Source: Rickettsiales bacterium (lineage in GTDB: Bacteria; Pseudomonadota; Alphaproteobacteria; Rickettsiales; SXRF01). Taken from it: a stretch of DNA of 64,000 nucleotides. The stretch lies in assembly GCA_025464625.1 (NCBI GenBank), contig JAOAUZ010000002.1:248001-312000 (forward strand). Reading direction: 5' to 3'. This document shows positions 6,870 to 45,484 of this stretch, piece after piece. The translations under genes and the position numbers were made by a program. Position 1 is the first letter of the stretch. Each line of letters begins with the position of its first letter. The notes under the pieces were generated by a model that was given only the letters and a program-made list of their open reading frames with translations, made no database searches and was not told where the DNA came from.

Positions 6870-7317
6870 TGAATCCTCCAGTTTGCCTTAATGCCTCACC
6901 TAACACCATACTGGCAGCAAGCGCAACATTTAGAGAGCGGGCATTTTCGTGCATTGGGATTTTTATCTGAGCGTGAGATGATTTTACCACATAATCAGGA
7001 ACGCCTGATGATTCACGCCCAAGAAGCAATATATCGTCCTTCTGAAAAGAAAAATCCGTGTAAATATTTTTGGATTTTGTACTCAGTAATATAATACGGC
7101 AGTCAGCACCTATATTTTCTATAAATTTATTCCAAGAAATATGCCTCTGCAAATCAGTCTGCACGCCATAATCCATAGCCACACGCTTCAATTGTTTGTC
7201 ATCTAACAGAAATCCACACGGTTCAATAATATGCAGGCGAACACCTAAACATGCGGCAAGACGCATCAAACTCCCTGTATTTTGTGGTATGTCGGGTTCA
7301 AATAAGGCAATATTCAT
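6862..7317 (-). CDS. trmL: tRNA (cytidine/uridine-34 2'-O)-methyltransferase
   Basis: SPOUT methyltransferase that 2'-O-methylates the wobble base of leucine tRNAs. From the ATG at 7317 it has 151 residues, the normal TrmL size. The N-terminal [18 protein letters not shown], the [11 protein letters not shown] segment and the trefoil-knot C-terminus [18 protein letters not shown] are all diagnostic. A longer reading to 7356 adds residues unlike the family. Its end overlaps the hemF start by 8 bases, so trmL-hemF are co-transcribed. Confidence 0.9.
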
Positions 7318-7477
7318 ATTTATCAGGATTTTATAATAGTTAATAAAATGTAACAAAAAATTGATTTATTATTTATATAAAATTAGTCATTATAATAAAA
7401 CACGCTATACACAACGTATATTTGATGAAAATATACGCCTACAATACAAACCAACACAGCTAATGGAAAGTTATTTT

Positions 7478-31339: not shown

Positions 31340-34300
31340 CTACACAAAAACCCGCAGGTGATTGAGAGCGACCATCAGTTTTGACAGGTTGATAATCTCG
31401 CCAGATTTTATTTCCACTATAAAATTGCCGAAACGCTCTAAAGCCTCCTGCCTATCTTCCTGCCAATCAGCAAAACTCTTTCCAGCAGTGATTACTGATA
31501 TTGCCAAGCGACGCTGCTCATCATAAAAATCGCCAAGAATTGCTTGAGCAGCAAGCCTATCAAAATAAGAATCCATATTGATATTTTGTGAGCAGGAGCG
31601 CAGCCAATCTAAATGCAATTTACTGCCTATCTCACCATAGATTTCACTTACAGACGCAGTATCTTTTTTGGTCTGGCGAGCGATGGTGATAATATCAAAA
31701 ACTGACGATAATTGCTCTAAATCACCATTCATATCCTTAATCGCTGGCGCAAAATCCTTGATAACTTCAGAAATATTAATCGGCAGGCGAACATTACGCA
31801 GCAGCCAGAAAATAGAGCGTTCAACAAATTTCTGAATAGTAAAAATTGTTTCCATCTGCGCTGTAGTATCCATCTTCGTATCAATATTTTTCCACATTTC
31901 TGGTAAATTGAATAAATCGCGCACAATTATATAAGCCGCATTTACATCACGCATAGAAACGTTTAAGTCTACCGCCATGTTGAAGGTAAAAGTTGTTCCC
32001 GCATAATTTACGATGTCATTGGTTATGAGTGTTGCGATAATTTCTCTCCGCAAAGGATGTTTTTCTATCGCACCCACAAATTCCTCGCGCATCGCTTTCG
32101 GGAAATATTTCTTCAGATCGGAAACAAAATATTCATCATCAGGAAGGTTAGATTCCAGCAAGCTATTATAACGCGCCATCTTGCTATAAGAGAGCAATAC
32201 AGCCAGTTCTGGACGGGTAAGCCCTTTACCCGCAGTTTTAAGCTCTGCAAGCTGCTTGTCGCTCGGTAAAAATTCTATTGCCCTGTTGAGCAAACCAAGT
32301 TTTTCCAACTGATGAATCAGGCGAATCTGCGAATCAATAAGTTTAACTCCGCGTGCCTGCTCAATACTTAAAGCCTGAGTTTGCAAAATATTATCTTTCA
32401 GCACCAACTCCGCCACCTCATCAGTCATGGAAGCAAGCAGTGCATCACGTTTTTCCAATGTCAATTTTTTGCTGGAAATTTCGCCACTGAAAGCAATTTT
32501 TATATTAACCTCATGATCCGAACAATCAACACCAGCCGAGTTATCTATCGCGTCGGTATTTATCCTGCCACCACTGCGTGCATATTCAATACGTCCCTTT
32601 TGCGTGAAGCCAAGATTCCCGCCTTCACCAACGATCTTACAGCGCAACTCATGTCCATTAACGCGCACTGCATTATTCGCACGATCACCAACCTGTTCAT
32701 CGCTTTCATCCTGCGCCTTAACATAAGTTCCAATACCGCCATTCCATAGCAAATCAACAGGCGCGAGCAAAATAGCGCGGATTAATTCATCAGGTGTAAG
32801 GCTTGCTTTGCTAATACCAAGTGCAGCTTGCGCTTCTGCGCTCAAGCTAATACTCTTTGCGCTACGCTCATAAACGCCACCGCCTTTGGAAATGAGTTTT
32901 TTATCATAATCAGTCCAATTAGAGCGTGGTAATTCAAATAATCTTTTGCGCTCAACGAAACTGGTTTTTTCATCAGGAGTTGGGTCTATGAAAATATGCA
33001 AATGGTTAAATGCCGCTATAAGGCGCATATTCTTTGAAAGCAACATACCATTACCAAACACGTCACCCGCCATGTCACCAATGCCAGTTGCAGTGAATGT
33101 TTTGCTGTCTATATCAACACCCATCTCTGCAAAATGACGTTTAACCGAAATAAACGCACCCTTAGCGGTAATCGCCATTTTTTTATGGTCATAACCAACT
33201 GAACCACCAGAAGCAAAAGCATCACCCAGCCAGAAATTATAGGCAGCAGATACAGAATTAGCAATGTCTGAAAAGCTTGCTGTGCCTTTATCAGCAGCAA
33301 CCACCAAATACGGGTCATCGCCATCATGACGAACTGTTTGCGCAGGCGGAACGATTTTTCCAGCAACGATATTATCCGTAATATCAAGCAATCCGCTTAA
33401 ATATAATTTATAGCAGGCAATTCCTTCTTCCTGCAATTTATCACGAGCAGCGGGTGCTTGTTTCAGCACGAAACCACCTTTAGAGCCAACTGGCACTATC
33501 ACCGAATTTTTTACCATCTGAGCTTTCATTAATCCCAGCACTTCAGTGCGAAAATCATCTGGTCTATCCGACCAACGTAAGCCTCCACGCGCTACTTTAC
33601 CGCCACGCAGATGGATGCCTTCCACGCGCGGTGAATAAACAAAAATTTCTGCAAAAGGCACTGGTTTTGGTAAGTCAGGAACATGTGCCGAATTGAATTT
33701 GAAAGAAAGAACTGGCTTTTGTGCGCCATCACTTCCTGATTGAAAATAATTGGTGCGCAAAGTTGCGTTTATAAGCTCTATGTAACGACGCAAAATACGA
33801 TCATGCACCGCGCTTTCCACCTGCGCCAGTTGCTGTTCAAAATCAATTGTTGGTTGGTTGTTGCCCGTTGCTGGGTTAAAACGTGATTCAAAAAATTCCA
33901 CGATATTTTTTACAATCTGTGGATAGGAGATGAAAGCCTGACTAATTGCTATTAATCCATGCACAAACCCAGCTTGCCTTAAATATTTAGCGTAAGCGCG
34001 CAGCAACACCACTTGCCTGAAACCCAGTCCTGCCTTCAAAATAAGAGAATTCAAGCGATCATTTTCCATTTCCAATCGCCAGATTTTCAACAATGCTTCT
34101 TCAAGAAGTGGTTTGATTTTATCAAAATCAATTTGAGCTTCGCTTATATGCTGCAAACGAAAATCACGCACCCACACCGCCACATTATTCAGATTTTGTG
34201 GTTTAACCAAAAAGGGATGCTCTTCAATAACTCGAAAGCCAGCATTTTCCAGCATCGGCAGAATGTCAGAAAGAGCAATTTCTTCATTAGGATTATAAAT

Positions 34301-35980
34301 TTTCAAATGAAAAATCTGTTTGTTTTCTGCCTTATGAGAAAGTTCTAACGCTAAACTATTAGTGGCTATTGCCTGTTCTATTTTTTCAATGTCAGCGACT
34401 GCTTCTTTGGTGCTGTAGCTATTAATATAGCTTTGTGGAAAAGAATTTCCATAAGTATGCGCCAATTTTTCTGCTGCTTTTTCACCATGCCGCGCAACCA
34501 AAGAATCAGTAAGCAAATCTGCCCACTGATATGCACATTTAGCGATTTCTTTTTCCACAGCCTGCAAAGAAACTTTAGGAATATCATTCGGAGTGGTGCG
34601 AATAATCAGGTTCAGGCGGGCAAGCGGTGCTTCGTTAATCTGCGTGGAAAATGAGGAGCTAACACCATTATAACTGCGCTCGATAATCTGCTGAATCTGA
34701 CGGCGCAGCTCTGTGGAAAAACGCTCACGCGGAACAAATATCATAAAGCTGATAAAACGCTCAAACACGTCCTTGCGTGCAAAAATCCGTACAGTTGGCT
34801 TGGATTCCAGCGCCAGAATACCCATGCTTGTTTCCAGCATATCATCATCTGACATTTGGAAAATTTCATCCCGCGGCAAAAATTCCAAAATAGTCTTCAG
34901 TGATTTTCCATCATGGCTGGCGGGATCAAATTCCGAACGCTCCAAAACGCGGGCAACCTTGCGTCTGATAAGGGGTATTGATTCCGTGCTTTGATAATAA
35001 ACATTAGAAGTAAACAGCCCTAAAAAGCGAATTTCACCAACAACATTGCCGTTTTTATCAAACTTTTTAAGCCCAATATAATCCATCGGCACAGAGCGAT
35101 GCACCAGCGAACGGCGGTTTGATTTGGTGATTTCAATTAACTGCGGAACAAGTAGGAAATGACGTTGTTCAAGTGGCATTGCCTCTATTCCGCGCGGGGC
35201 AAATTCATCTGCAAGTTTCAAAATACCAAGCCTAGAATCAGGAATGACAGCAAATATTTCTTTGCCCTTATCATCAAAAAATTGATACTCCGCGTAGCCA
35301 AGAAAAATAAAGTTTTTATCGACTATCCATTCTAAAAAATCACGCACTTCATCTACAGAATCCACACCTGTAGGCTGTTTATATGATTTTAGAGAGCCAG
35401 TCGCAAATTTGGCTTTCTCCATGATTTTCTGCCAGTCTTCAACCGCTGCCCGAACATTCTGTAATATCCATTCCAGATCCAATATAAATTGTTCAGATGT
35501 CGTGCCTTCTGGCAAAGCTGAAATCTCAAAATGGATGAATGATTCTTTCTTTTCGCTTTTATCACTAAGAGCAGAAATTTTTCCGCCCTTATCACGCGAA
35601 ACATTTATTATAGGATGGATGGTATTATAAATGGTAAAGCCACGACGTGTAAGCTCGATCGAAAGTGAATCTACCAGAAATGGCATATCATCATTGATGA
35701 GCTCAAGCACAAGATGTTTAACCTCATATCCGTGCTGTTTTTTATCAGGTGTAAAAATTCGGATTTTCGGCGCACTTCCAACGCGTTCGCCCATAAATTC
35801 AAAGGCATTCTTCGCCACAGCAATGGCAATATCTGGTTCTAAAGCCAGCAAATCATCAACGGGCAATTTTGCATAAAATTTGGAAACAAAATATGAAAAA
35901 TCTTTGCTGGAATCTTTAGGTAGGGCAGAAATGATTTTGGCAAGATGCGCGCTCTGTTGTTGCAAGTAGGATGTAATCAT
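31340..35980 (-). CDS. NAD-specific glutamate dehydrogenase, large type
   Basis: A 1,546-residue enzyme of the 170-180 kDa class, oxidising glutamate to 2-oxoglutarate. N-terminal ACT-like regulatory regions (first about 600 residues) precede the catalytic block with GGKVARGGLRWSDR, DDFRTEVLGLMKAQMVKN and VPVGSKGGFV (about 790-845), and the later GGNLGFTQKGRIEYA segment. Length is close to rickettsial homologues (about 1,580). I start at the ATG at 35980; an upstream in-frame ATG at 36037 lies in a palindromic repeat and adds non-family residues. It lets glutamate serve as a carbon source. Confidence 0.94.
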   Translation of the reverse strand: MITSYLQQQSAHLAKIISALPKDSSKDFSYFVSKFYAKLPVDDLLALEPDIAIAVAKNAFEFMGERVGSAPKIRIFTPDKKQHGYEVKHLVLELINDDMPFLVDSLSIELTRRGFTIYNTIHPIINVSRDKGGKISALSDKSEKKESFIHFEISALPEGTTSEQFILDLEWILQNVRAAVEDWQKIMEKAKFATGSLKSYKQPTGVDSVDEVRDFLEWIVDKNFIFLGYAEYQFFDDKGKEIFAVIPDSRLGILKLADEFAPRGIEAMPLEQRHFLLVPQLIEITKSNRRSLVHRSVPMDYIGLKKFDKNGNVVGEIRFLGLFTSNVYYQSTESIPLIRRKVARVLERSEFDPASHDGKSLKTILEFLPRDEIFQMSDDDMLETSMGILALESKPTVRIFARKDVFERFISFMIFVPRERFSTELRRQIQQIIERSYNGVSSSFSTQINEAPLARLNLIIRTTPNDIPKVSLQAVEKEIAKCAYQWADLLTDSLVARHGEKAAEKLAHTYGNSFPQSYINSYSTKEAVADIEKIEQAIATNSLALELSHKAENKQIFHLKIYNPNEEIALSDILPMLENAGFRVIEEHPFLVKPQNLNNVAVWVRDFRLQHISEAQIDFDKIKPLLEEALLKIWRLEMENDRLNSLILKAGLGFRQVVLLRAYAKYLRQAGFVHGLIAISQAFISYPQIVKNIVEFFESRFNPATGNNQPTIDFEQQLAQVESAVHDRILRRYIELINATLRTNYFQSGSDGAQKPVLSFKFNSAHVPDLPKPVPFAEIFVYSPRVEGIHLRGGKVARGGLRWSDRPDDFRTEVLGLMKAQMVKNSVIVPVGSKGGFVLKQAPAARDKLQEEGIACYKLYLSGLLDITDNIVAGKIVPPAQTVRHDGDDPYLVVAADKGTASFSDIANSVSAAYNFWLGDAFASGGSVGYDHKKMAITAKGAFISVKRHFAEMGVDIDSKTFTATGIGDMAGDVFGNGMLLSKNMRLIAAFNHLHIFIDPTPDEKTSFVERKRLFELPRSNWTDYDKKLISKGGGVYERSAKSISLSAEAQAALGISKASLTPDELIRAILLAPVDLLWNGGIGTYVKAQDESDEQVGDRANNAVRVNGHELRCKIVGEGGNLGFTQKGRIEYARSGGRINTDAIDNSAGVDCSDHEVNIKIAFSGEISSKKLTLEKRDALLASMTDEVAELVLKDNILQTQALSIEQARGVKLIDSQIRLIHQLEKLGLLNRAIEFLPSDKQLAELKTAGKGLTRPELAVLLSYSKMARYNSLLESNLPDDEYFVSDLKKYFPKAMREEFVGAIEKHPLRREIIATLITNDIVNYAGTTFTFNMAVDLNVSMRDVNAAYIIVRDLFNLPEMWKNIDTKMDTTAQMETIFTIQKFVERSIFWLLRNVRLPINISEVIKDFAPAIKDMNGDLEQLSSVFDIITIARQTKKDTASVSEIYGEIGSKLHLDWLRSCSQNINMDSYFDRLAAQAILGDFYDEQRRLAISVITAGKSFADWQEDRQEALERFGNFIVEIKSGEIINLSKLMVALNHLRVFV

Positions 35981-36032
35981 GAGTAAATACTTCTTATAAT
36001 TAAATAAAATTAGATAAAGGATTTCTAAACTT

Positions 36033-36121
36033 GTCATCCCGAGCTTGTCGAGGGATCTTTACAATTGAAAACAATTATAATGCAAAGATCTCTCACATTC
36101 GCTACGCTCGTTCGAGATGAC
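36033..36121. repeat. palindromic repeat, copy 2 (intergenic)
   Basis: An 89-base palindrome with outer arms GTCATCCCGAGCTTGTCGAG and ...CGTTCGAGATGAC and inner AAGATCTCTC. It is the longest of the five copies. It sits between the divergent glutamate dehydrogenase and cysQ genes and so is in both upstream regions. Confidence 0.85.
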
Positions 36122-39402: not shown

Positions 39403-40460
39403 GCTGCCATCTCTTTTTCTGCTACCGCATATGGACATTTTTCAAATGTTCTTGGGCAATAATGCCCTTTGCTGAAAGAACAAATTTTTTCTTCCTTTTC
39501 TGCCTTTAGACATAAATCAGCAAGAGCCTCGATAAATAGTGGTTCAACCCCAAGTGCTGGAACGCGGACATATCCTATTGCCCCATGTTTTTCTGCCAAA
39601 CGACGATATTCAATATCAAGCTCCACCAACGTTTCTGAATGTTCTGATACAAATGATACTGGGACTACAAGCAAAGGAATTTTTTCCTTACCAGCACGCT
39701 TTATTTCACTTTCTGCTGAAGGACCAATCCATTTCATTGGACCAACTCGACTCTGATAGCAAATACTGTAATCAAGTTCTTCAATGGCAAGAATCTGGGT
39801 GATTACAGAAACTGTTTTCTCCACCTGCCACTGATACGGATCGCCTTTTTCAATTATTTTCTCTGGCAATCCATGTGCTGAGAAAAGAACTCTCGGCTTA
39901 CCATTTTCTGATGCCTTCCAATATGAATCTTTGATTAATTTTGCATGGGCAGTGATGAAACCCAAATCTGCTGGGTAACAGCAAATTTTTGTTGTTGGCG
40001 CATCCAAATTTATGCTTTTTGCAGCCCGTTCCCAATCGGCGAATGACGAACCTGTGGTTGTAGTTGAAAATTGCGGATAAAGAGGAAGTAAAATTATATT
40101 ATCAGGAGAATAATTTTTTACATTCCTAACCACCGTATCACTCATTGGATGCCAATAGCGCATCGACACAAAAACTTTATATTCTGAGTTTTTATTCCTA
40201 TAGGAAAGCTGTGTCTCTAATTCTTTTGCTTGCAAATTGGTGAGTTCCAGAATTGGCGATTTACCGCCAATTTTATTATAAATATCCAATGCTTTTACAG
40301 ATCTTCTACTGGAAATCAATTTAGCAACCATCCAACGCAACGGGTTAGGTAAATCAATAATCGCTGGATCATAAAACAGATTAAATAAGAACGGCTTTAT
40401 CGCCTTTATTTCATCAGGTCCGCCAAGATTAAATAATATTACAGCTGTTTTTTTGGTCAT
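39399..40460 (-). CDS. hemH: ferrochelatase
   Basis: A 353-residue ferrochelatase that inserts Fe2+ into protoporphyrin IX. Motifs: [47 protein letters not shown] (catalytic His) and [18 protein letters not shown] (Glu). The C-terminal extension has several Cys ([19 protein letters not shown]), as in alphaproteobacterial ferrochelatases thought to carry an Fe-S cluster. It is coupled by four-base overlaps to hemE and hemJ. Confidence 0.95.
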
Positions 40461-41512
40461 GATTTTATAGAATGGTTTTTAATTATATCACAAATTGCAG
40501 ATACATTATCCGTTGGTGTGTTTGGCAAAATACCATGTGCAAGATTAAAGACAAAGGGTTTATCACCTAATTCACTAATAATTTTTTTGGTCTGCAAGCA
40601 TGCTTCATTCTTATCTTCTGCAAGCAGCACTGAGTCTAAATTTCCCTGTGGTATCACTAATTTTTGTAATTCATTTTTTGCAACATTAAGTGATATTGAT
40701 CCATCAAAACTAACTGCATCCACCCCTGTGTTTTTTGCGTAATCTATAGTTTTACTGCCTGCAAGTCTTGGAAATCCAATAACAGGAATATTTGGATATT
40801 TTTCTTTAATCGCAGAAGTTATTTTTTTACTTGGTGTTATAGAATAATCTAAAAATTCCTGCTCGCTTAACACCCCAGCCCAAGAATCAAAAAGTTGTAT
40901 AACCTGCGCGCCTGCTTTTATTTGTTCCAACGAATGCTCTATAACTGACTGCGTAAGTATATCAATTAATCCAGTAAAAAACTCTTTTTTTCTGAACGCT
41001 GTTTGCCTAACCGAAGAAAAATCCCTACTCCCTTTCCCTTCAATCATGTAACACGCTAAAGTCCATGGTAAACCACAAAAGCCAATTAAAGCTGTATTTT
41101 GTGATAATGACTTTCTGGTAAGATTAATTGCCTTGTATACTGGCTGTAATGTTTCACTAAAATTATTCTTTGATAATTGAGAAATATCAGAAACAGGATC
41201 TAATATAGGTCCATGTCCTTCTGCAAATTTCACATCAACCCCAAGAGCATCAGGAATAACTAGAATATCCGAAAATATAATAGCTGCACTCATTCCATAA
41301 CGAGTTATAGGCTGTAATGTAACCTCACAAGCTGCATCTGGTGTGTAGCAAAATTCTAAGAAATTACTAAAGTTTTTACGAACTTCACGATATTCTGGCA
41401 AATACCTCCCTGCTTGGCGCATAAACCAAAAAGGTATTCTTTCTACAACATCTTTATTTTTTGAATGACCTTTTTCAAAGCACGATAAAAAAATATTACT
41501 ATTATTACTCAT
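40457..41512 (-). CDS. hemE: uroporphyrinogen decarboxylase
   Basis: A 351-residue enzyme making coproporphyrinogen [20 protein letters not shown] (about 26-42), [12 protein letters not shown] with the active Asp, [16 protein letters not shown] and FDSWAGVLS are family motifs. It is the first gene of the leftward run hemE-hemH-hemJ-yraN-BON-gshB and begins right at the origin region, the place hemE takes beside Caulobacter and Rickettsia oriC. HemF, the next step, is encoded at 6 kb. Confidence 0.95.
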
Positions 41513-41686
41513 AAAGGTATTTTCTTATTAGTAGTATTAGTTATTAGCCGTTTTTCGGGGATTGTTTTTTAGTAACATTATTATCAACAGAAATACAGGA
41601 TATAAAATTTTATGGATAAGTTTTTGATAATAGATTTAAGCTATTCAATCTACTTAAATAATAAAAATTATAATATATAAAAAATC

Positions 41687-41695
41687 TGTGGATAA
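41687..41695 (-). promoter_or_regulatory. DnaA box, exact consensus
   Basis: TGTGGATAA, the complement of TTATCCACA, directly after the AT-rich tract of the origin. Confidence 0.85.
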
Positions 41696-41733
41696 GTAAT
41701 ATTATCACTGTATTTAACAGTATTTAAATAAAC

Positions 41734-41751
41734 TTTTCCACATGTGAATAA
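41734..41751. promoter_or_regulatory. abutting DnaA boxes in opposite orientation
   Basis: TTTTCCACA (one mismatch, plus) is followed without a gap by TGTGAATAA (matches TTATNCACA on the minus strand), forming a back-to-back pair. Confidence 0.75.
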
Positions 41752-41822
41752 AATAGATGACTTGATAGTTGTTTATATGGATAAAATATAACTCACAAAT
41801 TCACACAGAAAATACACAAAAC

Positions 41823-41831
41823 TTATCCACA
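41823..41831 (+). promoter_or_regulatory. DnaA box, exact consensus
   Basis: TTATCCACA, 18 bases from the 3' end of the origin-proximal orphan gene. Confidence 0.85.
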
Positions 41832-41849
41832 AAGTTATAAGTAGATAAA

Positions 41850-42365
41850 TTATCTACACAAGTTTTTATCATGATTAATTAGAGGAATTTGTGGATTATC
41901 CAATTCAATTTTTCTACCCTCATAAAAATTAGAAAAAGCTTTAATTATTTTTTTCATCTCTTCGGCAGTTTGATTACCTTGAGGAGAAAGAGCAGATTCA
42001 TCGGCACCAGAAGATTCTAAATGATATTGTACAGATCTTAATTTACCTTTCATTCCATCACTACTTCCAATTCCACTAAGGAATTCCTTAAATCTTTCTC
42101 GAGCAGTATTTATATGTTCATCATTGGATGGTATGTCTTTACATGAATAAATATCATGAACAGCTTGAGAAAGAGCTTTCATAACCTCAGCAGATTGTTG
42201 CCCTCTAGGATCAAGAGCTTTTTCATCAACCCCAGCATCACTCAAATGTTCTTTCATCTTTGATAGTGTGCTTTTTTCACCATCAATTAGTTGTATGAAA
42301 TCTCTTCGAGCAGCAATTATATCCAGCTGCCTTTTTTCTTCTTTGCTTTTTCCAAAACCAAACAT
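41850..42365 (-). CDS. origin-proximal orphan with two internal repeats
   Basis: Unrecognised 171-residue soluble protein. It contains two similar helical units: about 17-80 (with HLSDAGVDEKALDPRGQQSA) and about 85-152 (with HLESSGADESALSPQGNQTA). Each has the pattern HL(x)SGxDExALxPxGxQxAExMK and ends in an aromatic helix (VHDIY / FSNFY). The N-terminus MFGFGKSKEEKRQ is basic. It is transcribed towards oriC, its stop overlapping a weak DnaA box, and lies between oriC and ppsR where other alphaproteobacteria, as far as I know, have no such gene. A replication role is only a guess. Confidence 0.7.
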   Translation of the reverse strand: MFGFGKSKEEKRQLDIIAARRDFIQLIDGEKSTLSKMKEHLSDAGVDEKALDPRGQQSAEVMKALSQAVHDIYSCKDIPSNDEHINTARERFKEFLSGIGSSDGMKGKLRSVQYHLESSGADESALSPQGNQTAEEMKKIIKAFSNFYEGRKIELDNPQIPLINHDKNLCR

Positions 42366-42552
42366 AATTATTACTCTATAAAAATAACTTTAATGGTATT
42401 TATCGAGACAATGCTATCATAACAGAATATATAAATAAAATTAATGTTTAATGACAATAATTGAGGTTTAATGTATATATTGCCAGTAAATGACTAAGAT
42501 GTTATAAAATCATCAGTTTTTATATATTTAACTATCCAGAAAATAGAAAATC

Positions 42553-43383
42553 ATGAAAAAATTTAATCTCCACCTTGTGTCAGATTCTACAGGAGAAACA
42601 GTAGGTAGTGTCGCTAGAGCTGCCTTAGTTCAGTTTGAGGATGTGGACGCAGAGGAATTTAGCTGGACTCTGGTGCGTAGCAAAGCGCAAATGGAGAAAG
42701 TTATTGAAGAAATAAGGGAAAATCCAGGTGCTGTGATGTATACGCTGGTAGATCCAAAACTGCGCGATATGCTGAAAATAGAATGTGCCAAGCGTGGGCT
42801 GCCTTGCATTGAGGTGTTATCTAGCGTAGTTTCCGAATTATCATCTTATCTAGGAATAGAAAGCCACGCGCAAACAGGCAAGCAATATGAGCTGAACGAG
42901 GAATATTTTACCCGCATGGACGCTATTAATTATGCATTGGCGCATGATGACGGGCAAGGACACTGGGAAATGGAAGAGGCGGATATTATTATTCTTGGCG
43001 TGTCACGCACCTCAAAATCACCAACCTGTATGTATTTGGCATATAAAGGATATAAAGCAGCCAATATCCCGCTAGTTTTAGATTGTCCGCTTCCGCCAAG
43101 TTTAGAAACGCTGAAAAGACCACTTATTATTGGTCTCACGATTAATCCTGATAGGTTACAACAAATCCGTAAATCACGCCTGCAATCGTTAAGTCAGGAA
43201 GGCGAAACCAACTATGTTGATATGGAATATATGCAGAAAGAAATTGCTGAAGCGCGCAAACTATATTCCAAACACCGTTGGCCAGTGATTGATGTAACCA
43301 AGCGTTCAGTGGAAGAAACCGCAGCAACCATTGTACAATACCTAAAAAAACATCAGGAAAAATTGGCAGGAAGTGGTGAGTAA
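42553..43383 (+). CDS. ppsR: PPDK/PEP-synthase regulatory kinase-phosphotransferase (DUF299)
   Basis: A 276-residue DUF299 protein that phosphorylates and dephosphorylates pyruvate phosphate dikinase or PEP synthase. HLVSDSTGETVGSVARAAL (7-25) and the P-loop GVSRTSKSPTCMYLAYKG (about 152-169) are signature motifs, as is GLTINPDRLQQIRKSRL. It is the homologue found beside the origin in alphaproteobacteria. It starts the rightward run ppsR-aroE-coaE-dnaQ; its 3' end overlaps aroE. maf, which I expect between ppsR and aroE in relatives, is missing. Confidence 0.93.
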   Translation: MKKFNLHLVSDSTGETVGSVARAALVQFEDVDAEEFSWTLVRSKAQMEKVIEEIRENPGAVMYTLVDPKLRDMLKIECAKRGLPCIEVLSSVVSELSSYLGIESHAQTGKQYELNEEYFTRMDAINYALAHDDGQGHWEMEEADIIILGVSRTSKSPTCMYLAYKGYKAANIPLVLDCPLPPSLETLKRPLIIGLTINPDRLQQIRKSRLQSLSQEGETNYVDMEYMQKEIAEARKLYSKHRWPVIDVTKRSVEETAATIVQYLKKHQEKLAGSGE

Positions 43384-44197
43384 AATAATAAAAGCAGGGG
43401 TTATCGGATTTCCTGTGGAGCATAGCCTGTCGCCACGTCTGCATAATTATTGGCTAAAAAAATATAATATTGCTGGTGAATATAAAGCCTATCCCGTCAA
43501 GCCAGAAAATCTGGCAGGGTTTATTGATGATTTGCGAAAAGATGAAGATTTTGTTGGCGTGAATCTGACTATTCCACATAAAGAAACGGTAATTCCGTTT
43601 TTGGATGGAATAGATGATATTGCAATGGCAATTGGGGCGGTGAATACCATTATTGCAAAAGATGGAAAACTTCATGGTACAAATACGGATGTTTATGGAT
43701 TTTACGAAAATATTCACCAGCATATTAAAGGTAAAAATAAAGCTGTTGTGCTTGGAGCAGGTGGGGCAGCTAAAGCAGTTATTTTTGCTTTGGAAATGGA
43801 AAAATTTGAAGAGATTATTATTACTAATCGGACTCGGGATAGAGCCTTAATTTTAGCACATATATATACATCTGGTTCACAAGTAGCCAATTGGGAAAAT
43901 CGTAACAAAATATTAGAAAATGTCGATTTATTAGTAAACACCACCAGCCTTGGAATGACAGGTAAAGAACCACTAGAGATTGATTTATCATTACTTCCTA
44001 AAACTGCATTAGTTACAGATATTGTCTATAATCCGCTGGTAACTCCATTGCTTGCGCAGGCACAGGCTAGGGGAAATCCAACTGTTGATGGGTTGGGGAT
44101 GCTGCTGCATCAAGCTGTGCCAGCATTTGAAGCGTGGTTTGGAGTAAAACCAGAAGTTACGCAGGAACTCAGGCAATATGTTTTAAGTGGAAAATAA
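43376..44197 (+). CDS. aroE: shikimate dehydrogenase
   Basis: A 273-residue NADP-dependent enzyme of aromatic amino-acid synthesis reducing 3-dehydroshikimate. IGFPVEHSLSPRLHNYWL, VNLTIPHKETV (catalytic Lys), NTDVYGF, VLGAGGAAKA and NTTSLGM are family motifs. The start is one of two adjacent GTGs (43373 or 43376) within the end of ppsR; I take the second, 5 bases after GGCAGG. Confidence 0.94.
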   Translation: MSKIIKAGVIGFPVEHSLSPRLHNYWLKKYNIAGEYKAYPVKPENLAGFIDDLRKDEDFVGVNLTIPHKETVIPFLDGIDDIAMAIGAVNTIIAKDGKLHGTNTDVYGFYENIHQHIKGKNKAVVLGAGGAAKAVIFALEMEKFEEIIITNRTRDRALILAHIYTSGSQVANWENRNKILENVDLLVNTTSLGMTGKEPLEIDLSLLPKTALVTDIVYNPLVTPLLAQAQARGNPTVDGLGMLLHQAVPAFEAWFGVKPEVTQELRQYVLSGK

Positions 44198-44201
44198 AAC
44201 T

Positions 44202-44786
44202 ATGGTTGTTATTGGGCTTACAGGCAGTATTGGAATGGGGAAAAGCACCATTGCGCGCCAATTTTCTGCGCTTGGAGCTAAAATTTGTAGTGCTGATGCC
44301 TGCGTGCATAAATTGATGAGTAAAGGCGGAAAGGCAGTCACTGAAATAGAAAAATATTTTCCAGAGGCGGTAAGAGATGGTGAAGTTGATAGACAGATAC
44401 TCGGCAAAATAGTTTTTGCTGATAAAACCAAACTTACAAAACTAGAGAATATATTGCACCCGCTTGTACAGAAAATGGAAGATGATTTTATTGTTAAAGT
44501 AAAGCGATTAGGAGCGACATTAGTGGTTCTTGATATACCGCTTTTATTTGAAACAGATGGACATGAGAGAGTGGATTTTACTGTGGTTACCTCAGCTCCT
44601 TATTTTATTCAGAGGCAGCGGGTTATGGCACGAAAAAACATGACCACAGAAAAATTTGAACGAATTATCGCCAGTCAGATGCAGGATCTAGAAAAACGTA
44701 ATCGTGCTGATTTTGTGATTCCTACAGGCTTGGGAAAAGCCTATAGTTTTAAGCTGGTGAAGGAATTGCTTTCAGAGATTAGGTAA
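44202..44786 (+). CDS. coaE: dephospho-CoA kinase
   Basis: A 194-residue P-loop kinase for the last step of coenzyme A synthesis. GLTGSIGMGKSTIA (about 5-18) is the Walker A segment; DIPLLFETDGHERVDFTVVT and RVMARKNMT...RIASQ are typical. The ATG at 44202 fits the family N-terminus; a GTG at 44187 overlapping aroE is possible but adds five unusual residues. It is followed 8 bases later by dnaQ. Confidence 0.93.
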   Translation: MVVIGLTGSIGMGKSTIARQFSALGAKICSADACVHKLMSKGGKAVTEIEKYFPEAVRDGEVDRQILGKIVFADKTKLTKLENILHPLVQKMEDDFIVKVKRLGATLVVLDIPLLFETDGHERVDFTVVTSAPYFIQRQRVMARKNMTTEKFERIIASQMQDLEKRNRADFVIPTGLGKAYSFKLVKELLSEIR

Positions 44787-44794
44787 GAGGAAAA

Positions 44795-45484
44795 ATGAAA
44801 CGTGAAATAGTACTAGATACCGAAACTACTGGGCTTGACCCATTCAGCGGACATCGAATGGTGGAAATAGGTTGTGTGGAACTGATTGATGGTTTGCGGA
44901 CAGGAGAATTTTTTCATAGCTATCTTAATCCAGAGCGTGATGTTCCAGCGGAGGCGTTTCGCGTGCATGGTCTTTCCACGCAGTTTTTAAGTGATAAACC
45001 AATTTTTTCTGAGAAGGTAGATAGTTTTCTTGAATTTATAGCTGATGCAACGCTGGTTATCCATAATGCTGCATTTGACATGAAATTTGTGAATTTTGAA
45101 CTGGATAGATTAGGATTTCCAGCAATAGCAATGGATAGAACTGTTGATACGGTTCTCATCGCCCGCAAAAAATTCCCAGGTAGTCCAGCAAGTCTGGATG
45201 CTCTTTGCAAAAGATTTGATATAGATTTGTCTGGTCGTACTAAGCATGGCGCGCTTCTGGACGCTGAACTGCTGGCAGAGGTTTATCTGGATTTAATGGG
45301 TGGTAGACAGGCGATATTTGCCCTTGATACAAACAGCAAAGCGATTACTTCCAGCGAATATACTGTCACGAAAACAAGAACTACACTAGAAGCTAGGTTC
45401 TTCGAAGTTTCTGAAGAAGAGGAAGAAGCTCATAAAGCGATGCTTACCAAACTTAAAAACCCTCTATGGTTGGAAGCGATTTGA
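44795..45484 (+). CDS. dnaQ: DNA polymerase III epsilon subunit (3'-5' exonuclease)
   Basis: A 229-residue DEDDh proofreading exonuclease. Exo I EIVLDTETTGLDP (3-15), Exo II VIHNAAFDMKFV (about 87-98) and Exo III KHGALLDAELLAEVYL (about 150-165, catalytic His and Asp) are intact. The C-terminal tail (about 180-229) would bind the polymerase alpha subunit. The position after coaE, near oriC, is the usual alphaproteobacterial arrangement. Two hairpins follow it. Confidence 0.94.
   Translation: MKREIVLDTETTGLDPFSGHRMVEIGCVELIDGLRTGEFFHSYLNPERDVPAEAFRVHGLSTQFLSDKPIFSEKVDSFLEFIADATLVIHNAAFDMKFVNFELDRLGFPAIAMDRTVDTVLIARKKFPGSPASLDALCKRFDIDLSGRTKHGALLDAELLAEVYLDLMGGRQAIFALDTNSKAITSSEYTVTKTRTTLEARFFEVSEEEEEAHKAMLTKLKNPLWLEAI

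Follow-up and report, generated by a model that had tools for sequence, protein, structure and literature searches.

A predicted replication origin beside hemE in a Rickettsiales-like alphaproteobacterium, with a TAG repeat at conserved distances from DnaA boxes

The window analysed here is a 64-kb stretch of genomic DNA, positions 248001-312000 of contig C5, and all coordinates refer to it unless a contig is named. Within it, a short AT-rich region separates two sets of genes. Leftward lie a UPF0093 (hemJ-like) gene, hemH and hemE, and rightward are ppsR, aroE, coaE and a gene for a dnaQ-like exonuclease. A preliminary description of this DNA had recognized the hemE/ppsR setting of alphaproteobacterial origins. 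That assignment is borne out by the flanking Pfam matches (PF01208 and PF03618), and the order hemE, oriC, ppsR-aroE-coaE-dnaQ matches those of Caulobacter and Rickettsia. The region had also been described as gene-free. This is correct for 41513-41849, but the last nine bases of the interval ending at 41858 overlap an open reading frame (ORF), and the order is thus hemE, oriC, ORF, ppsR. The features of the locus are listed below.

40457-41512, minus strand: hemE, uroporphyrinogen decarboxylase (PF01208).
41513-41849, no strand: core of the predicted oriC, without genes and with a GC content of about 22%; collinear with the entire hemE-ppsR gap of the sister species.
41529-41540, plus strand: TAGTAGTATTAG, a DnaA-trio-like TAG repeat; TAGTGGTAGTAGTAG and GTGTAGTAGTAG stand at the same place in the sisters.
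41541-41549, plus strand: TTATTAGCC (TTATCAGAG and TTATCAAAG in the sisters), abutting the TAG repeat; speculatively, a possible very weak DnaA site with four mismatches.
41556-41561, minus strand: CGGGGA (TCCCCG on the minus strand), resembling the Caulobacter W-box TCCCCA (consensus from PMC4285127).
41581-41589, plus strand: DnaA box with one mismatch, TTATCAACA, exact in sister L003.
41611-41619, minus strand: DnaA box with one mismatch, TTATCCATA.
41641-41704, no strand: AT tract, candidate unwinding element.
41687-41695, minus strand: exact DnaA box, TTATCCACA.
41734-41742, plus strand: DnaA box with one mismatch, TTTTCCACA, left half of a back-to-back pair.
41743-41751, minus strand: exact DnaA box, TTATTCACA, right half of the pair.
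41776-41784, minus strand: DnaA box with one mismatch, TTATCCATA.
41823-41831, plus strand: exact DnaA box, TTATCCACA.
41850-41858, plus strand: box with one mismatch, TTATCTACA, without counterpart in the sisters.
41850-42365, minus strand: ORF of 171 aa with no Pfam family and with weak paralogues, between oriC and ppsR here, not in the sisters.
42553-43383, plus strand: ppsR/COG1806, kinase-pyrophosphorylase (PF03618).
43373-45484, plus strand: aroE, coaE and the dnaQ-like exonuclease gene, in origin-flanking gene order.

A rescan of 41513-41858 yields three exact TTATNCACA boxes and five with one mismatch, in agreement with the earlier count of three and at least five, and the back-to-back pair reported at 41734-41751 is real. 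Neither the three exact boxes nor the total of eight exact or near boxes was reached in any of 3000 dinucleotide-preserving shuffles of this 346-bp region, for which the means are 0.03 and 0.88, respectively. A further one-mismatch box is found on the minus strand at 41890, just outside the interval. Exact boxes were counted over the whole genome (1,899,048 bases in seven contigs), near boxes over 742 kb of sampled genome and the 64-kb window. The genome contains 96 exact boxes in total, and the only three that fall within 300 bp of one another are those at 289687, 289743, and 289823 of contig C5. No denser cluster was detected elsewhere; the best other 300-base stretch in the 742 kb sampled has five boxes, none of them exact, as compared with eight including three exact at the hemE site. 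Five one-mismatch boxes, three of them TTTTCCACA, also occur at 34431-34731, grouped in 300 bases inside a large gene (31340-36037) that looks like NAD-dependent glutamate dehydrogenase. The GC content is normal there, and this grouping is probably a coincidence.

The oriC region is richer in AT than the genome average, with 78% as compared with about 58-59% in the sampled genome. The AT tract pointed out in the preliminary description is real as well: according to nearest-neighbour energies, the 30- and 50-bp segments beginning at 41655 form the least stable duplex in the 64 kb. The most AT-rich 100 bases of the window are at 7300-7400, with 13% GC.

A skew minimum is expected at an origin, and the cumulative GC skew of the window reaches its minimum at 42388, with the sign changing from minus to plus here. 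This minimum misses the box cluster by about 540 bp, an offset too small for skew to resolve. Skew was sampled across the genome in 20-kb stretches that cover less than half of it; on contig C5 it is negative in nine of the 10 stretches to the left of the window and positive in all six to the right. On contig C6, the largest, it is first positive and then, from around 450-550 kb, negative, a terminus-like pattern, though two of the stretches sampled there (L065 and L066, within 100001-170000) are almost wholly masked as N. Because a minus-to-plus change is unaffected by reversal of a contig, C5 carries the minimum and C6 the maximum in either orientation.

DnaA itself is encoded away from oriC, by a full-length gene with an intact DHTTV motif at 511842 of contig C6. 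A dnaA gene distant from the origin is usual where oriC adjoins hemE. Given that control regions can also carry DnaA boxes, the hemE-ppsR cluster could in principle serve DnaA titration or belong to a DnaA-regulated promoter of hemE or ppsR, with the true origin elsewhere, such as near dnaA. A smaller cluster (one exact and three near boxes) does exist on contig C6 at 510722-510820, upstream of rpsT, a rhodanese-like gene, and dnaA. However, it is half as dense, and the broad skew there falls from plus to minus, whereas an origin shows the reverse. The hemE site, by contrast, has the skew minimum together with the gene setting conserved at origins. We see scarcely any chance that the origin lies elsewhere. 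An origin at dnaA in particular is rejected on the basis of skew direction and box density, and the cluster at 510722-510820 probably serves DnaA in feedback control of its own operon.

The region 41513-41858 is thus almost certainly the single chromosomal replication origin of this Rickettsiales-like alphaproteobacterium. The boxes, the skew, the uniqueness of the cluster, and the gene setting all agree with the original reading of a replication origin between hemE and ppsR. From computed features (a unique box cluster, a switch in skew, a conserved gene setting, and a spacing kept among relatives, described below), we infer that DnaA binds, that the strands open, and that initiation is bidirectional. 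DnaA would most likely nucleate at the exact boxes at 41687, 41743, and 41823, and then would spread across the weak boxes. Opening would occur in adjacent AT-rich DNA, either the AT tract at 41641-41704 or the hemE-side end with the TAG repeat, and would be followed by helicase loading and the departure of two forks in opposite directions. The position of oriC provides a starting point for chromosome coordinates and aids contig orientation in this uncultured Rickettsiales-like genome. The origin is an ordinary one of an already known kind, in the usual alphaproteobacterial position next to hemE. What is added to the first reading is the conserved spacing of the TAG repeat and an ORF insertion private to the lineage.

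For comparison, loci were retrieved via ppsR from metagenome-assembled genomes with titles such as 'Rickettsiales bacterium' and 'Alphaproteobacteria bacterium', as well as from other relatives. In the sister species L002 and L003, 334 and 358 bp separate hemE from ppsR, and both of these gaps can be aligned over their full length with 41513-41845. All three species share identical boxes at 41687 and 41823 and also have boxes, of varying form, at 41581, 41734, and 41743. In most relatives, DnaA boxes stand in the same place, (G)TGGTAGTAG or a similar sequence is present near hemE with the strand unchanged, and a GGGGAT-like motif follows the TAG repeat at a similar place.

The sequence TAGTAG is present in the forward direction in 21 of the 41 regions, in each case within the 40% nearest to hemE, and in reverse in three; shuffles give a mean of 2.8 and a maximum of seven, and these counts are to be read with the post hoc choice of the motif and the shared ancestry of the 41 regions, which are not independent, in mind. 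Where the repeat is clear, in 15 regions, it is 5 to 57 bp from the hemE start. The hemE promoter has to lie on this same side, and the repeat could be part of that promoter or of the hemE leader instead of a DnaA-trio. We think this rather unlikely. The distance to hemE varies, whereas the distances to the boxes hardly do: the best forward box is 37-45 bp from the repeat in 10 of 13 regions (40 bp in the window) and the best reverse box 69-73 bp in nine of 11 (70 bp in the window), within search ranges of 20-75 and 45-110 bp that were set after the spacing profile. The strand preference of the repeat, 21 forward against three reverse, also speaks against a promoter or leader element. The constant repeat-to-box spacing, set against the varying distance to hemE, is the stronger argument for the TAG element.

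Origins located between hemE and COG1806 have been described for Caulobacter crescentus and Rickettsia (PMC1914354). By the features used there for hemE-type origins, the present region has the position, the TTATNCACA boxes, and the AT content, with no comparable DnaA-box cluster elsewhere among the exact boxes of the whole genome or the near boxes of the 742 kb sampled and the window. It shares with the Caulobacter crescentus Cori and the Rickettsia prowazekii oriC (PMC1914354) the flanking genes, the size class (~340-400 bp), an AT content above that of the genome, and DnaA boxes. The boxes in the window read TTATCCACA, whereas the Caulobacter G-box is TGATCCACA (PMC4285127). In contrast to both origins, an ORF is placed between oriC and COG1806, and CtrA and IHF sites are not above chance. 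The CtrA motif TTAA-N7-TTAA occurs at one place, matching both strands, and shuffles give as many in 51%; the single IHF-like match is equalled in 42%. Zero to few CtrA sites are reported for several Rickettsiales (PMC1914354). CcrM GANTC and GATC sites are absent from the oriC region. In the 64-kb window, parS searches return two matches with three mismatches each, about the level of chance, and Rfam and tRNA scans return none.

The basal unwinding system (BUS) of Bacillus subtilis and others (PMC8287927) resembles the window in having a one-strand TAG repeat with DnaA boxes to one side. Its rule calls for at least three NAN trinucleotides, consensus 3'-GAT-5', and a DnaA box with no more than two mismatches within 16 bp of the trios (PMC8287927). 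The trinucleotides are present at 41529-41540 as TAG TAG TAT TAG. Unlike in the BUS, the nearest box with up to two mismatches, that at 41581, is 40 bp from the repeat, as it is 37-45 bp away in most relatives, and the W-box-like GGGGAT lies between. Because no such box falls within 16 bp, the TAG repeat is not classed as a BUS. It nevertheless has the sequence of DnaA-trios and may work like a BUS, and it is a candidate unwinding element. The AT tract is the other candidate; the TAG repeat is favored by conservation and the AT tract by duplex stability, and either may be the opening site.

As a tentative proposal, which we hold to be possible and no stronger, hemE-type origins of alphaproteobacteria could share an opening module. 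Its elements would be AT-rich DNA, the TAG repeat, a weak W-box-like GGGGAT in inverted orientation, and two DnaA boxes, the forward one about 38 bp and the reverse one about 70 bp farther along. Access to the trio would be long-range, by way of weak sites or a bend in the DNA, unlike in Bacillus, where a strong box abuts it. We found no statement of a TAG repeat-box spacing in the literature searched (mostly open-access, main texts). The conserved spacing predicts the opening site of such origins in a way that can be tested.

The 171-aa ORF and its spacer (42366-42552) together occupy 41850-42552, about 700 bp that are absent from both sister species compared. Relatives of the ORF were not found in three congeners, and Pfam and PHROGs searches gave nothing significant. 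It could be thought to take part in origin control, for example by transcription running into oriC, which would be an addition to the origin and not a true rival of it. The ORF points toward oriC, its final three codons (TGT AGA TAA) form the near-consensus DnaA box at 41850, and a search for a terminator-like site between the ORF and oriC found none. Yet the sister species do without it, and confidence in its single-sequence structure model is low (pLDDT 44). Moreover, relatives of the family are found at unrelated loci, and its place beside oriC is most simply put down to chance. A role in origin control is accordingly very improbable in our estimation, and the ORF is most simply a chance insertion of a repeat-protein family member next to oriC. 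The family is lineage-specific and mostly helical. Weak relatives of the ORF are located next to mreB in the same genome, where paralogues of 307 and 210 aa adjoin the mreB-like gene on contig C6, and also in one further family of the order. One congener carries a relative of the mreB-side paralogue.
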